A stretch of DNA of 12,723 nucleotides from an uncultured Massilia sp. (GTDB lineage Bacteria > Pseudomonadota > Gammaproteobacteria > Burkholderiales > Burkholderiaceae), in contig CAMPHU010000137.1 in the NCBI GenBank assembly GCA_946886065.1, positions 1 to 12,723 on the forward strand, written 5' to 3'. Position 1 is the stretch's first letter. Every line of letters starts with the position of its first letter. The notes under the pieces were generated by a model. The model saw only the letters and a list, made by a program, of their open reading frames with translations. It searched no databases and had not been told where the DNA came from. Below, in pieces: positions 2,423 through 6,955 of the stretch. A program made the translations under genes and the position numbers.

Positions 2423-2914
2423 TCAGGCCAGGGTCACGCTGCCGGCGGCGCCCTGGCGCGTCATCTTGGTGTAGGGACACAGCCGCTCGGCGCTGCGCAC
2501 GAGGCCTTCGGCCAGCTGGCGCTCCACGCCCGGCAGGGTGATGAGGACGTCGGCGGTCAGCATGGTCAGCCCATCCATCGGATCGCGCCCGAAGGCGACC
2601 CGGACGTCGACCCGCGCGTCCGCGATCTCCATGCCGGCGCGCGCCGCCAGCAGGTGCAGGGCGCCATGGAAGCAGGCGCCGTAGGCGGCGGCGAACAGCT
2701 GCTCCGGATTGGTGCCGCTTCCCGGTCCGCCCAGTTCTTCCGGCAGGCGCAGCGCGATCTCGAGCCGTCCGTCGTCCGAGCGCGCCACGCCGGAAGCGCG
2801 CCCATGTCCGCTCTCGCCGCCGGTGACCGCGACCGTGGTCGTGTACAAGGGCAGGAAGTGCTCGCCCCGGTAGCGCTCGAGCAGGCTGGCCGGCGGCGGC
2901 TTGAGCGGACTCAT
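2423..2914 (-). CDS. Ohr/OsmC-family organic hydroperoxide resistance protein
   Basis: This 163-residue cytoplasmic thiol peroxidase reduces organic hydroperoxides in the known members of its family. The two reactive cysteines are visible: Cys81 in AAAYGACFHGAL and Cys146 in ERLCPYTKM. Their spacing of 65 residues is typical of Ohr, and the CPY context favours Ohr over OsmC. Also typical are LYTTTVAVTGG and TNPEQLFAAAYGACF. The N-terminus is about 15-20 residues longer than most Ohr proteins (MSPLKPPPASLLERYRGEHF). The start codon lies four bases after the SDR stop codon, and a GAGG inside the end of that gene serves as ribosome binding site, so the two are co-transcribed and probably translationally coupled. 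No OhrR-type (MarR) regulator is near; a LysR gene lies upstream instead. Confidence 0.9.
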   Translation of the reverse strand: MSPLKPPPASLLERYRGEHFLPLYTTTVAVTGGESGHGRASGVARSDDGRLEIALRLPEELGGPGSGTNPEQLFAAAYGACFHGALHLLAARAGMEIADARVDVRVAFGRDPMDGLTMLTADVLITLPGVERQLAEGLVRSAERLCPYTKMTRQGAAGSVTLA

Positions 2915-2918
2915 CGGC

Positions 2919-3677
2919 CTATGCCTCGACGGCGCGTTGCTGCTCCAGCCAGCTGTCCAGGCCCAGCTTGCCCAGGCGCGCCTCGCCGGCCGGCACCAGG
3001 GTGCCGTCCTCCAGCCTGGCGCCGAAGTAGCGCGCGTCTTCGTCGGCCACGACCTTGCGCGTATCGCCGCTAGCTGCCAGGTAGCGCTGGACCAGCTCGG
3101 TCATGCGCTGGCGTTCGGGACCGGCGATCTCGACCACGCCATTGACCGGCGCGTCCAGCGTGCAGTCGGCCATGGCCAGGGCCACGTCCTCGGCCGCGAT
3201 CGGCTGCAGCCAGGCCGGCGACAGGTGCACGGTGTCGCCCTGGGCGCCGGATTGCGCGATGCCGCCCAGGAACTCGAGGAACTGGGTCGAGTGCACGATG
3301 GTGTAGGGGATGCCGGATTCGCGGATCAGCTTCTCCTGCAGGATCTTGCCGCGGAAGTAGCCGCTCTCCGCCAGGCGGTCGGTGCCGACCACGGACAGCG
3401 CCAGGTGATGCCGGACCCCGGCGCGCGCCTCGGCGGCCAGCAGGTTGCGGCCCGAGGTCCCGAAGAAGTCGAGCACCGCCTGGTCCTCGAACGAGGGCGA
3501 GTTGGCGACATCGACCACGACCTGGGCACCGGCCAGCGCCGCGTCCAGGCCCTCGCCGGTGAGGGTGTTGACGCCGGACGCGGGCGAGGCGGCCAGCACC
3601 TCGTGGCCGCGCTCGCGCAGGATGGCGACCAGCTTGCTGCCGATGAGGCCACTGCCTCCGATAACGACGATTTTCAT
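2919..3677 (-). CDS. Atypical SDR / NmrA-like NAD(P)-binding oxidoreductase
   Basis: This 252-residue protein has an N-terminal Rossmann fold, with MKIVVIGGSGLIGS carrying the GGxGxxG dinucleotide motif (Gly7-Gly13). Later segments, GYFRGKILQEKLIRESG (about 107-123) and YTIVHSTQFLEFLG, are typical of atypical, NmrA-like SDR proteins, which lack the usual YxxxK active site. It is probably an NAD(P)H-binding oxidoreductase or redox sensor; the substrate cannot be read from the sequence. AGGAAA lies seven bases before the ATG. It is the first gene of a two-gene unit with the Ohr gene. Its upstream region contains a block shared with the AhpD-like gene on the other side of lysR, suggesting common control. 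Confidence 0.85.
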   Translation of the reverse strand: MKIVVIGGSGLIGSKLVAILRERGHEVLAASPASGVNTLTGEGLDAALAGAQVVVDVANSPSFEDQAVLDFFGTSGRNLLAAEARAGVRHHLALSVVGTDRLAESGYFRGKILQEKLIRESGIPYTIVHSTQFLEFLGGIAQSGAQGDTVHLSPAWLQPIAAEDVALAMADCTLDAPVNGVVEIAGPERQRMTELVQRYLAASGDTRKVVADEDARYFGARLEDGTLVPAGEARLGKLGLDSWLEQQRAVEA

Positions 3678-3739
3678 GATGTGTTTCCTGTAGAGTGCCC
3701 CGGTGCGCCGCGGCCGCCGTGTGCGGATATCGCTGGAAC

Positions 3740-3811
3740 CAGTGTAGGCAAGGCCCGGGGAGCCCGGTAGGTCCGTCCAGGGCCGCGCATTGTTGTGCGC
3801 CGCGCACCAAT
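3740..3811 (-). promoter_or_regulatory. Candidate LysR-responsive promoter/operator of the SDR-ohr unit
   Basis: Read on the minus strand from 3811 to 3740, this block aligns without gaps to 4944-5015 on the plus strand, with 52 of 72 identical by eye. Shared elements are ATTGGTGC (3811-3804), a T-N11-A dyad (T at 3806, A at 3794), GCGGCCCTG, CCTACCGGG (3771-3763) and CCTACACTG (3748-3740). TACACT at 3746-3741 is a plausible -10. The T-N11-A box would then centre near -66, the usual LysR-type recognition position. The site begins 11 bases after the lysR stop codon. Binding by this LysR is inferred. Confidence 0.6.
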
Positions 3812-3822
3812 GCGGCCGGCGC

Positions 3823-4842
3823 TCAGGGGAAGGCGAGGCTGTCCAGGCAGTGCAGGTCGAGGGCGCGCACCTGCAGCGTCATGTCGTCGACGAAGACCCG
3901 GATGCGCGCCGGCAGGTGGCGCCGGCTCTGGTAGCACAGGTAGTGGCCGCGGTCGTCCGGCGCATAGGGCGCCAGGCAGGCCAGCAGCCGTCCGCTGCGC
4001 AGGTATCCGCATGCCTGGTAGCCGGCCAGCTGGGCCAGGCCTTCTCCCGCCAGTACGGCGTCGAGCACCAGGCCGGCGTCGTTGAAGCCGAGCGAGGAAG
4101 GCGGCAGCATGCGCCGTACCTGGCCGTTGACCTTGAACTCCCACTCGCAGCTGCGCCCGGCCGCGTTGAGGAAGTGGACGCAGCGGTGCCGTTCCAGCTC
4201 ATCGACCGTGTGCGGCATGCCGTGGAGGGCGAAGTACTCCGGGGTGGCGCACACCAGCATGTGCATCGGGATCAGCTGCCTGGCGATCGCCTGGCTGTCG
4301 TCGAGGCGGCCGTCGCGGAAAGCCACGTCGATGCGGTCGGCGATGAAATCGGGGGCACCGTCGTCCAGCACCAGGTCGATGCCGATCTCCGGATAGCGCG
4401 CGCGAAAGCCGCGCAGCAGGGGCGCGACGACCTGGCGTCCGAAGCCGGCCGGGGCGGCTACCCGCAGCTGGCCGCGCGGCGGGCCGGCGCGCAGGTCGCG
4501 CATGTCCTCCACCGCCTGCACGATGCGCTCGACGCCGGGCTTGCAGCTTTCATAGAACAGCGCCCCTTCGCCGGTGAGCGAGGTGCTGCGCGTGGTGCGC
4601 AGGAACAGGCGCGTATCGAGCTGGGACTCGAGCTTCTGCACGCTGCGGCTCACGGCCGAACGGCCGATGCCGAGCCGTTCCGCGGCCCGCGCGAAGCTGC
4701 CTTCGTGGACCACCGCGATGAAGGCCAGCACGCCGGCATAGGTGGTCGCGAAGCTCGACGCCAGCGCATCGCCGCGCTCGCGCACCGCTTGCCGCACCGG
4801 GCTGCCGCCACCGGCCTGGACCGCCACCATCTCCATCTTCAT
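3823..4842 (-). CDS. LysR-family transcriptional regulator
   Basis: This 339-residue LysR-type regulator has a winged helix-turn-helix at about residues 36-95 (FIAVVHEGSFARAAERLG, then SAVSRSVQKLESQLDTRLF and TRSTSLTGEG). A co-inducer-binding domain of two periplasmic-binding-protein-like lobes follows at about 124-320. The start has a strong AGGAGG site six bases upstream (4849-4854). This supports a real N-terminal extension of about 34 residues before the HTH, which is long for the family. The gene is divergent from the AhpD-cupin pair and lies just upstream of the SDR-ohr pair on the same strand. Both flanking pairs carry a matching upstream block, so this protein is the likely regulator of both. 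The ligand is unknown; an oxidant or reactive organic compound is a guess from the targets. Confidence 0.92.
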   Translation of the reverse strand: MKMEMVAVQAGGGSPVRQAVRERGDALASSFATTYAGVLAFIAVVHEGSFARAAERLGIGRSAVSRSVQKLESQLDTRLFLRTTRSTSLTGEGALFYESCKPGVERIVQAVEDMRDLRAGPPRGQLRVAAPAGFGRQVVAPLLRGFRARYPEIGIDLVLDDGAPDFIADRIDVAFRDGRLDDSQAIARQLIPMHMLVCATPEYFALHGMPHTVDELERHRCVHFLNAAGRSCEWEFKVNGQVRRMLPPSSLGFNDAGLVLDAVLAGEGLAQLAGYQACGYLRSGRLLACLAPYAPDDRGHYLCYQSRRHLPARIRVFVDDMTLQVRALDLHCLDSLAFP

Positions 4843-4883
4843 CCTGTTCCTCCTGCCCCGCCCCGGCGGCGCTCCACAAGGAC

Positions 4884-4912
4884 ATCGTAGTCAGGCCAGG
4901 GTGGACCGGCAA
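4884..4912 (-). promoter_or_regulatory. Candidate promoter of the lysR gene
   Basis: On the minus strand TTGCCG (4912-4907) and TACGAT (4889-4884) are separated by 17 bases, each matching four of six consensus positions. The predicted start at about 4877 leaves a leader of about 35 bases before the AGGAGG site. The shared operator at 4944 lies about 70 bases upstream, consistent with classic LysR autoregulation from a divergent region. Confidence 0.45.
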
Positions 4913-4943
4913 TGACAAAAATCCCCGCATTCATGCCACCAGG

Positions 4944-5015
4944 ATTGGTGCCTGGCGTGCACCGCTGTGCGGCCCTGCGCAGGCCTACCGGGAAGCGGGA
5001 GCCCTTCCTACACTG
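4944..5015 (+). promoter_or_regulatory. Candidate LysR-responsive promoter/operator of the AhpD-cupin unit
   Basis: This is the plus-strand partner of the block at 3811-3740. It contains the dyad GGTGC-N7-GCACC (4947-4963) with T4949-N11-A4961, CCTACCGGG at 4984-4992 and CCTACACTG at 5007-5015. TACACT at 5009-5014 is a plausible -10; transcription would start near 5021, putting the dyad near -66. The -35 region matches consensus poorly, as expected for an activator-dependent promoter. A perfect TGTCA-CA-TGACA dyad (5020-5031) sits on the predicted start site. Confidence 0.6.
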
Positions 5016-5054
5016 CTCCTGTCACATGACAACACACGACAACAGGAGAACCTC

Positions 5055-5534
5055 ATGTCCCAGCGCATCAACTACATGGAACAGTCGCCCGAACTGTTCA
5101 AGAAATTCCTCGACTTCAACCTGGCGATCAAGCAATGCACGATCGAGGAAAGCCTGCGCGAGCTGGTCGAGATCCGCGCGTCCCAGCTGAACGGCTGCGG
5201 CTTCTGCCTCGACATGCACGTCAAGCAGGCGCGCATCCACGGCGAACGCGAACTGCGCCTGCACCACCTGGCGATCTGGCGCGAATCGACCCTGTTCGTG
5301 CCGCGCGAGCGCGCCGCCCTGGCCTGGACCGAGGCGCTGACCCGCCTGCCGGAACAGGGCGTGCCGGCTGAGCTCTACGACCGCGTGCGCGGCCAGCTGT
5401 CCGAGAAAGAATTGTCCGACCTTACCTTCGTCGTCATGGCCATCAATGCCTGGAACCGCGTCAACGTCGCCTTCACGGTGGTGCCGGGTTCCTATGATGC
5501 GGCCTTCGGCCTGGGCAAGGCCAACCTGTCCTAG
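5055..5534 (+). CDS. Carboxymuconolactone decarboxylase family protein, AhpD-like (CxxC)
   Basis: This 159-residue all-helical protein carries the AhpD-like redox motif: Cys48-Gly-Phe-Cys51 with His55 in NGCGFCLDMHVKQAR, preceded by ELVEIRASQ. These residues form the thiol peroxidase/disulfide reductase site in AhpD-like proteins. True gamma-carboxymuconolactone decarboxylases do not use a CxxC, so a redox role is much more likely than aromatic degradation. AGGAG at 5044-5048 supports the ATG. It is the first gene of a unit with the cupin gene, and its stop codon is part of the cupin's ribosome binding site. It is divergent from lysR and shares its promoter block with the SDR-ohr unit. No ahpC or ahpF is in the window, so its thiol partner is unknown. 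Confidence 0.9.
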   Translation: MSQRINYMEQSPELFKKFLDFNLAIKQCTIEESLRELVEIRASQLNGCGFCLDMHVKQARIHGERELRLHHLAIWRESTLFVPRERAALAWTEALTRLPEQGVPAELYDRVRGQLSEKELSDLTFVVMAINAWNRVNVAFTVVPGSYDAAFGLGKANLS

Positions 5535-5542
5535 GAGGTCCC

Positions 5543-5956
5543 ATGTCTTTCGCAACCAGCATGAGCAGCGCCCTGGCCCTGGCGGCCGGCGTCCTGCTCG
5601 CCCCGCATACCGCGGCAGCGCCCGCGGAGCCGGTCACGGTCACCACCCTGATGACCAAGGCCCTGGCCGAGAATCCGGGCAAGGAAGTCCTGATTATCAC
5701 GGTCGACTACGCGCCGGGCGCGGCCGACCCGGTGCACCGCCACGATGCGCCCGCTTTTGTCTACGTCCTGGAAGGTTCGATCGTGATGGGGGTAAAGGGC
5801 GGGAAGGAACAGGTCGTGAATGCCGGCCAGCTCTTCTACGAGGGGCCGCAGGACCTGCACACGGTCGGCCGCAACGCCAGCAAGACCAAGCCGGCCAAGT
5901 TCCTGGTGTTCCTGGTCAAGAACGCGGGAAAACCCTTCTTCATCCCCGTGAAGTAG
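5543..5956 (+). CDS. Exported small cupin-domain protein
   Basis: This 137-residue protein has an N-terminal signal peptide (residues 1-26, an Ala/Leu-rich core ending HTAAA) and one cupin barrel. Cupin motif 1 reads PGAADPVHRHDAPAFVYVLEG, with metal-ligand histidines His65 and His67. Motif 2 is GQLFYEGPQDLHTVG with His106. The Glu expected three or four residues after the HxH is absent (Ala71/Phe72), so any metal site would be three-histidine or altered. Translation starts from AGGAGGT (5533-5539), which overlaps the stop codon of the AhpD-like gene; the pair is tightly coupled. Its function is unknown; a periplasmic partner of a stress module is inferred only from position. It ends six bases from the convergent GlxA-type gene. 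Confidence 0.85.
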   Translation: MSFATSMSSALALAAGVLLAPHTAAAPAEPVTVTTLMTKALAENPGKEVLIITVDYAPGAADPVHRHDAPAFVYVLEGSIVMGVKGGKEQVVNAGQLFYEGPQDLHTVGRNASKTKPAKFLVFLVKNAGKPFFIPVK

Positions 5957-5962
5957 GGAAGA

Positions 5963-6955
5963 TCACAGGTGCTGGCGGCGCCAGGCGCTGGGCGACTGGC
6001 CCAGGTGTCGCATGAAGCTGGCGCGCATTCGCTCGGGGTCGCCGAAGCCGCATTCCTCGGCGATCTGCTCGAGCTTGCGGTCGGACTGCTGCAGCAGGCG
6101 GCGCGCCGCCTCCAGGCGGAACAGCTCGATCGCCTTGGCCGGGGTGCGCCCGGTCCTGGCGCGGTAGACGCGCGCGAAGTTGCGCGGGCTCATGCAGGCC
6201 TGGCCGGCCAGGGTCTCGACGTTGAGGTCGGCGCTGGCCAGGTGGGCGGCGATCCAGCGGTGCAGGGCGTCGAACTGCACGCCGTCGCCGGCCTGCAGCG
6301 CCAGCTGGGCGCTGTGCTGGGATTCGCCGCCGGCGCGGCGCACGTGGACGGCGAGTTCGCGTGCCACCAGCATCGCGATCTCGTTGCCGTGGTCGGCCTC
6401 GACCATGGCCAGCGCCATGTCGATGCCGGTGCTGACGCCGGCCGAGGTCCAGACCGGGTCCTGGCGCACGAATACCGCTTCCGGCTCCACCCGCACGCTG
6501 GGGTGCAAGGCGGCGAGGCGCTCGCACAGGGCCCAGTGGGTGGTGGCGCGGCGGCCGTCGAGCAGGCCGGCCGCGGCCAGCAGGAAGGAGCCGGTGCAGA
6601 CCGAGGCGATGCGCCGTGCGTCGCTGGCGCGCAGCCAGGCGACCAGGGGCGCCAGCTCGTGGATGGCCGTGACCATCTCGGCGGTGCCGGGCACCAGCAC
6701 GGTGTCGGGCTGGAGTTCGGGCGCGTCCAGGCTGGCGGTGGCCAGCACGGTGCCCTCGGCGGTCTCGACCGTGTTGCCGCCGATGCTGGCGGTGACCAGG
6801 GCATAGCCGGGCAAGCCGCGCGGCTTCAGGTGGCGGTTGGCGCACCAGAACACCGTCTGGGCGCCGGCCAGGTCGAGCATGCAGGTGCCGGGGTAGACGG
6901 TAAACACGACCTGCCGCACGGCGTGCGCAGGGGAAGGGGGAAGAAGGGCGTTCAT
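5963..6955 (-). CDS. GlxA-family transcriptional regulator (DJ-1/PfpI domain plus AraC HTH)
   Basis: This 330-residue regulator has two parts. The N-terminal part (about 14-190) is a DJ-1/PfpI amidotransferase-like domain, with FTVYPGTCMLDLAGAQTVF, then Cys120 at the nucleophile elbow (ASVCTGSFLLAAAGLL) and GRRATTHW. The C-terminal part (about 228-328) is a double HTH of the AraC family (NVETLAGQACMSPRNFARVY; GRTPAKAIELFRLEAARRLL; CGFGDPERMRASFMRHLG). Known relatives (GlxA, ArgR, CdhR, GbdR types) sense small nitrogen compounds; this ligand is not evident. The cysteine is retained, but most such regulators are thought not to be enzymes. The gene is divergent from dinB and convergent with the cupin gene. 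No good ribosome site is seen before the ATG; an internal start is possible but the domain begins close to it. Confidence 0.92.
   Translation of the reverse strand: MNALLPPSPAHAVRQVVFTVYPGTCMLDLAGAQTVFWCANRHLKPRGLPGYALVTASIGGNTVETAEGTVLATASLDAPELQPDTVLVPGTAEMVTAIHELAPLVAWLRASDARRIASVCTGSFLLAAAGLLDGRRATTHWALCERLAALHPSVRVEPEAVFVRQDPVWTSAGVSTGIDMALAMVEADHGNEIAMLVARELAVHVRRAGGESQHSAQLALQAGDGVQFDALHRWIAAHLASADLNVETLAGQACMSPRNFARVYRARTGRTPAKAIELFRLEAARRLLQQSDRKLEQIAEECGFGDPERMRASFMRHLGQSPSAWRRQHL

Follow-up and report, generated by a model that had tools for sequence, protein, structure and literature searches.

In the general model of LysR-type regulators, as outlined in excerpts of PMC11739112, the protein acts through a recognition site and an activation site. 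Pseudomonas aeruginosa needs the AhpD-like protein RclX, which is under a regulator of its own, against HOCl and HOSCN (excerpts of PMC7950407). For PA0269, another AhpD-like protein (PDB 2o4d), excerpts of PMC3141380 report a weak ability to reduce H2O2; in its main text on PA0269 the word 'LysR' does not occur. A search of the open-access literature, with subscription papers mostly outside its scope, returned no description of the gene set presented here together with a LysR.

The window (the whole stretch of 12,723 nucleotides analysed here, from an uncultured Massilia sp.) encodes a LysR-type regulator of 339 residues on the minus strand (3823..4842), with HTH_1 (69.8 bits, cut-off 26.6) and LysR_substrate (123.3 bits, cut-off 28) domains. 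Its closest named matches found are from Massilia sp. ST3 and Massilia sp. DD77 (86% each), and P0001 stands at 99%. The gene lies between two copies of a 72-base block, here denoted A and B, of which its product is the putative binding protein, and is divergent from the operon behind block B. That operon begins with a CMD/AhpD-like protein of 159 residues (5055..5534, plus strand), which carries a CGFC (CxxC) motif at 48 and scores 56 bits for the AhpD core domain (TIGR00778, cut-off 27.8). After a gap of 8 bases follows a cupin of 137 residues (5543..5956, plus strand), with an N-terminus that by eye is hydrophobic and signal-like. Behind block A, on the minus strand, are an NmrA-like/SDR NAD(P)-binding protein of 252 residues (2919..3677) and, 4 bases on, an Ohr-family peroxiredoxin of 163 residues (2423..2914; TIGR03561, 114 bits against a cut-off of 88.85). 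The latter has cysteines at 81 and 146, in the contexts ACFHG and LCPYT, which we take to be the two Ohr cysteines. Convergent with the CMD-cupin operon is a gene for an AraC-type regulator with a DJ-1/PfpI domain (5963..6955, minus strand); no block stands ahead of it in the window.

Like LysR-type systems, as far as the excerpted sources describe them, the locus combines the HTH_1 and LysR_substrate domains with a T-N11-A dyad near -66, a second region nearer the promoter, a divergent gene and more than one target promoter. A point of difference from the general model may be that the likeness covers all 72 bases, the -10 among them, and recurs at every unit. The second-best solved relative of the regulator is PDB 3hhg, a LysR-family protein (E 7.9e-41), which we take to be CrgA of Neisseria meningitidis. 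CrgA likewise has a T-N11-A site, in its case in the crgA/mdaB promoter region (excerpts of PMC6422896), but its target genes differ and the match is one to the LysR family in general. The best named family, E. coli YafC (NCBIfam NF040888), gives 188.8 bits, far below its cut-off of 470, so the regulator is not a YafC. As in the RclR-RclX system, where RclR induces RclX (excerpts of PMC7950407), the regulator adjoins a gene for an AhpD-like CxxC protein. The CMD protein matches PA0269 over residues 1-142 (E 1.3e-36) with the CxxC kept. RclR, unlike the LysR of the window, is a regulator of another kind, a member of the AraC family, and RclX is likened to the CMD protein by description. By analogy with what the excerpts say of them, PA0269 and RclX may point to oxidant or electrophile defence, without naming an inducer.

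A repeated block on both sides of the regulator gene

The sequence-only reading had counted, by eye, 52 identities in an ungapped 72-base likeness between minus-strand 3811-3740 and plus-strand 4944-5015, and the count proved exact. Putatively, block B (4944..5015, plus strand) serves the CMD(AhpD-like)-cupin operon as LysR operator and core promoter, and block A (3740..3811, minus strand) does the same for the NmrA/SDR-ohr operon behind it. The score of 52 is the highest that any ungapped 72-base alignment of the intergenic regions, 145 and 212 bases long, attains. The shuffled-sequence control that the reading had asked for, run on 2000 dinucleotide-preserving shuffle pairs, gave a maximum of 41 (mean 33.5, sd 1.6), and in the rest of the window, on both strands, every 72-mer has at most 36 matches to either block. 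The flanks are unrelated, as had been said: identity ends at the block edges. The shared parts that the reading named (ATTGGTGC, the T-N11-A dyad, CTACCG and TACACT) also sit where it placed them.

Along the block, ATTGGTGC lies at 4944-4951 in block B and at 3811-3804 in block A (plus and minus strand, respectively, here and below). The second dyad arm of block B, GCACCG (4959-4964), and the arm of block A at 3798-3793 belong to the T-N11-A dyad, which has the identical aligned position in both. About 22 bases on comes a second conserved region, consisting in block B of GTGCGGCCC (4967-4975) and CTACCG (4985-4990), together a putative activation site; block A has GCGCGGCCC at 3788-3780 and CTACCG at 3770-3765. 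The layout ends in a TACACT -10 (5009-5014 and 3746-3741). With the start set about 7 bases past TACACT, the dyad is centred near -66 as the reading had it, a figure that is arithmetic on a predicted start. The blocks hold no recognisable -35, and a scan of 3600-5100 for a strict sigma-70 consensus returned no promoter; this null result fits an activator-dependent promoter, but proves nothing.

A search of 61 relatives found the LysR (E <= 1e-60) in nine, at ten places. Blocks score 50-85 in the nine cassette-bearing loci and the next matches at most -5, except for one of 25.7 in L019; this gap is partly by construction, since the matrix was made from 22 of the same sites. Together with those of the window, the blocks of the nine relatives' loci make 23, which align without gaps over 75 columns. 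Thirteen columns are invariant: A2 T3 T4 G5 G8 in the dyad, G27 in GTGC, C43 T44 at the start of CTACCG, and T67 A68 A70 C71 T72 in the -10. Dyad symmetry is strongest about column 13, where it reads ATTGGTGC-N7-GCACCA. The blocks thus hold a T-N11-A in an interrupted dyad near -65, as LysR-type operators do, the value of -66 resting on the predicted start. Columns 26-33 and 43-48 are conserved as well, and we label this region as the activation site provisionally. Within the block, pairwise identity averages 0.60; in the flanks it averages 0.285 for the 23 training blocks and 0.301 for 21 other blocks. Of the 273 letters that these 21 have in the invariant columns, 265 are kept, a likeness that is partly selected, since the profile itself found the 21 blocks.

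Taken as a whole, the comparisons make it highly probable that the 72-base block is the operator and core promoter of the LysR encoded between its copies. A LysR tetramer would occupy the dyad as its recognition site, near -66; on binding an inducer it would also occupy the second region, near -44, as its activation site, and would recruit polymerase to a promoter that is weak on its own. The AhpD-like, cupin, NmrA/SDR and Ohr proteins would then be induced together, and in many relatives also a separately located, lactonase-like hydrolase of the MBL fold. The role, which we propose with less assurance, would be detoxification of an organic peroxide, a lactone or another electrophile; a part in peroxide or electrophile stress is read from the enzyme families.

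A variant of this explanation holds that the LysR represses these promoters and that an inducer releases it. A recognition site near -66 with a second region near -44 and no -35 is the usual activation layout, and it is what the blocks have, which argues against the variant and makes it rather unlikely. A precedent for it is the LysR-family CrgA of P. aeruginosa, which represses alkB2 and is released from binding by long-chain acyl-CoAs (excerpts of PMC6422896). In the excerpts of PMC11739112, a LysR tetramer is described that, with its effector, shifts off a site of repression and onto one of activation, so both modes may apply.

Occurrence of the block and of the regulator across genomes

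A profile built on sequence alone from 23 sites was run over 392 genomes of the family, with filters whose stricter settings may miss weak matches. It matched at E <= 1e-3 in 19 genomes. The LysR (E <= 1e-95) is present in 16 of the 392, every one of them a genome with a profile match; sites thus co-occur with the regulator across genomes, as in a LysR regulon (16 of 16 against 3 of the 376 without a LysR match). The eight LysR-bearing genomes that gave no training sequence all have blocks. The probability of such an overlap by chance, if genomes were independent, is 9e-26 overall and 1.5e-14 outside training, figures that overstate independence because the genomes are related. The three block genomes without the LysR (G105, G151 and G238) have one weak match each. 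In G105 and G238 no LysR match lies near the weak site. Close to the weak match of G151 (L068, G151:C283, near 3060-3115) is a stretch that resembles a LysR (44.7% over 150 residues), and the match may belong to a sister regulator or system.

Phylogenetic footprinting, which the sequence-only reading had suggested as a check, gave a consistent picture: the blocks are kept in all 16 family genomes with the LysR and absent from all 13 places with the CMD gene but without the LysR. Class-level samples of 350 genomes contained neither blocks nor this particular LysR and are uninformative. The circuit that the reading had drawn around the LysR is supported, as the blocks follow the regulator from genome to genome, and what emerges is a well-supported candidate regulon of ordinary LysR type.

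Two relatives of the regulator are found in other settings. A paralogue in G006 (L023, its second LysR, 66%), the last of the ten places in the 61 relatives, has no cassette and no match above 30 bits, and a Burkholderia LysR at 58% (L013) likewise has no cassette and no match above 30 bits; part of this LysR family therefore does something else. Near the second LysR of G006 there is a weak dyad-like match (L023:6619-6667, minus strand, 22.8 bits), and this paralogue may be a sister regulator whose site is related. Redox sensing through conserved cysteines of the LysR (window residues 100, 198 and 303, invariant in 21 of 21 aligned sequences) was considered and dropped: the aligned set includes L013 and L023, with neither cassette nor strong blocks, and the invariance is thus no evidence for it.

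Beyond the family genomes, we fetched 5 of 24 plasmid records with the LysR, from Variovorax, Caballeronia (two), Paraburkholderia and Cupriavidus, their LysR proteins being 60-65% identical to that of the window. Each of these five Burkholderiales replicons with a LysR homologue has two profile matches (E <= 1e-4). In Caballeronia and Paraburkholderia, one site precedes CMD and the other NmrA or Ohr. In Cupriavidus one site leads NmrA, and the second, weaker at 19.5 bits, is not followed directly by any cassette gene. In Variovorax paradoxus (L122, NZ_CP138516.1) no cassette gene was found within the 11 kb examined, and the two sites precede frames that read as alpha/beta-hydrolase-like. In the Paraburkholderia record (AP028202.1), a gene annotated as a sigma-70-type factor (L124:2845-3726) immediately precedes the block with its CMD-cupin-LysR-SDR cluster. 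Nannocystis poenicansa (L012), a myxobacterium of another phylum, carries relatives of the LysR, NmrA, Ohr and cupin proteins at 65-73% identity, 65% being that of the LysR, and one block before NmrA-Ohr. LysR and block in this organism suggest horizontal transfer, and going by these sequence matches the Nannocystis cassette was probably acquired horizontally.

These loci also bear on the reading that the blocks bind another regulator, such as the neighbouring AraC/DJ-1 protein, and that the tie to the LysR is one of linkage. Of 18 family LysR loci, 17 have an AraC match in the neighbourhood of the cassette: the window and 16 of 17 others (L014-L022 and L079-L085 among them), the exception (L073) being a contig of 3.5 kb. 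In L084 the AraC gene even has a block of its own, 233 bases ahead of it. Yet Nannocystis has LysR and block with no AraC match in the 9 kb examined, as do L123, L124 and L126 in 11 kb, and in the CMD-NmrA cluster of G336 (L117) an AraC/DJ-1 gene is divergent from the enzymes, with no LysR match and no block. Since a T-N11-A dyad at -66 is moreover the layout of LysR rather than of AraC proteins, we regard binding by the AraC protein as very improbable and retain the LysR as the candidate binding protein.

Genes led by the block

Positions were counted in 19 loci for the 47 matches that exceed 30 bits, of which 23 are training sites; nine weaker matches (at most 22.8 bits, the L023 site included) were dropped, and L011, which is the same contig as L014, was counted once. 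The 47 blocks lead CMD (15), cupin (14), NmrA (9), Ohr (6), AraC (1, the L084 gene) and none of the known genes (2), at a median distance of 48 bases to the start of the matched gene. Whatever the gene order, 44 of the 47 point toward the start of CMD, cupin, NmrA or Ohr at most 400 bases off. In the reverse count two blocks point away from a cassette gene start; they are the divergent pair of L085, each facing its own gene. Two blocks, both in L019, lead no cassette gene, and one of them leads a protein of 132 residues that matches no Pfam family and, on reading, resembles frames that follow other blocks in G415 and G419. Such a small protein, about 120-130 residues long and with EKIGI-RIRL-LPVCG near its start, stands behind a block in G419, G034 and, on a reading of the DNA, G415 (L054, L057 and L019:9188-9586); the two examples tested against Pfam (L054 and L019) match no family.

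Of the cassette genes, 22 lack a block of their own. In 19 cases the gene begins 7-53 bases after another member of the cassette; the Ohr genes of L020 and L085 overlap or abut the end of NmrA, and the L012 cupin starts 134 bases behind Ohr. Such spacing, from which we take the operons, indicates that one block heads each probable transcription unit, in any gene order. The sequence-only reading had described a two-operon regulon; its circuit is well supported, and the number is too narrow, as cupin, Ohr and NmrA have a block of their own where they lead a unit and an MBL-fold gene is a further target. In 11 of the 16 LysR genomes a gene for an MBL-fold hydrolase lies behind a block, none of these 11 blocks being in the training set. 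This target is away from the cluster, about 8 kb off in G006 and elsewhere on other contigs or far off. The family was assigned by profile for one of the 11 proteins (L064) and for the other ten by shared sequence on reading. For L064 the best named family is the AidB quorum-quenching lactonase, at 121.3 bits against a cut-off of 360, and among solved structures its closest relative is a reconstructed lactonase/dihydrocoumarin hydrolase. The frame of the G022 MBL-fold gene (L066, G022:C118, about 2640-3263, minus strand) ends early and looks broken or like an assembly error.

The same data weigh on the possibility that descent, not function, makes the blocks alike, promoter DNA having been duplicated recently or a small repeat element copied. 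In its favour, columns of the window pair that vary elsewhere agree more than expected, in 16 of 23 cases against 0.32 by composition (permutation p 0.0001). That pair, however, was picked for its likeness, and over four loci such columns agree at a mean of 0.45 within a genome and of 0.40 between genomes, the other loci standing at 0.33. In these four loci the two blocks of one genome (0.65) are less alike than orthologous blocks are (A-A 0.73, B-B 0.79), so that any duplication would predate these species. Against the possibility, too, the blocks precede a few gene families and point at them, divergent blocks retain the same columns, and no Rfam family matches the window; the Rfam result also led us to reject a structured RNA. 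Recent duplication or a mobile repeat as main cause was accordingly rejected, on the likeness of the orthologous pairs and the aim of the blocks at few gene families, and we give it hardly any credence. Where the earlier reading had the block 'selected or duplicated as a unit', duplication is not demonstrated, and shared constraint accounts for most of the likeness.

The same enzymes beside other regulators

A CMD gene (E <= 1e-45) is present in 25 of the 392 genomes. Thirteen of them have the LysR, all with blocks, and twelve lack it, none with blocks. One LysR genome, G419, has a second CMD cluster without an adjoining LysR (L116) beside the LysR form (L082). At none of the 13 CMD places without the LysR does the profile match at E <= 10. 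Ten of these places were viewed with wide flanks; the others (G250, G219 and G268, at 62-63% identity) were searched within 2.7-3.5 kb. The block thus travels with the LysR and not with the enzymes.

All ten widely viewed clusters contain NmrA and seven contain a cupin. In nine (L112-L116 and L118-L121), a divergent regulator of about 527 residues takes the place of the LysR; it consists of Trans_reg_C and TPR domains (Pfam, on L113), the others being 72-83% identical to L113. The tenth is the G336 cluster with its divergent AraC/DJ-1 protein described above. The winged-helix/TPR regulator occurs in none of the 19 LysR loci, within the stretches examined.

The analysis turns a pair of look-alike promoters into a testable regulon, with a candidate operator, a regulator and a set of little-studied stress enzymes (AhpD-like/CMD proteins, NmrA/SDR proteins and small cupins). 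The inducer of one LysR would give a common physiological clue to all of these enzymes. We tentatively suggest, as an idea somewhat less likely to hold than to fail, that the detoxification cassette (AhpD-like protein, NmrA/SDR, periplasmic-looking cupin, Ohr and a separate MBL-fold lactonase) answers one small molecule, which may be an oxidised lipid or a lactone made by plants or microbes, and that in the course of evolution no fewer than three unrelated regulators have captured it: the LysR with its 72-base block, the winged-helix/TPR protein of about 527 residues and the AraC/DJ-1 protein. If true, nature would here provide a clean example of regulators replacing one another over a largely constant gene set, with two forms in one genome (G419). 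The winged-helix/TPR regulator that takes the LysR's place beside the same genes offers a natural comparison of operator gain and loss.
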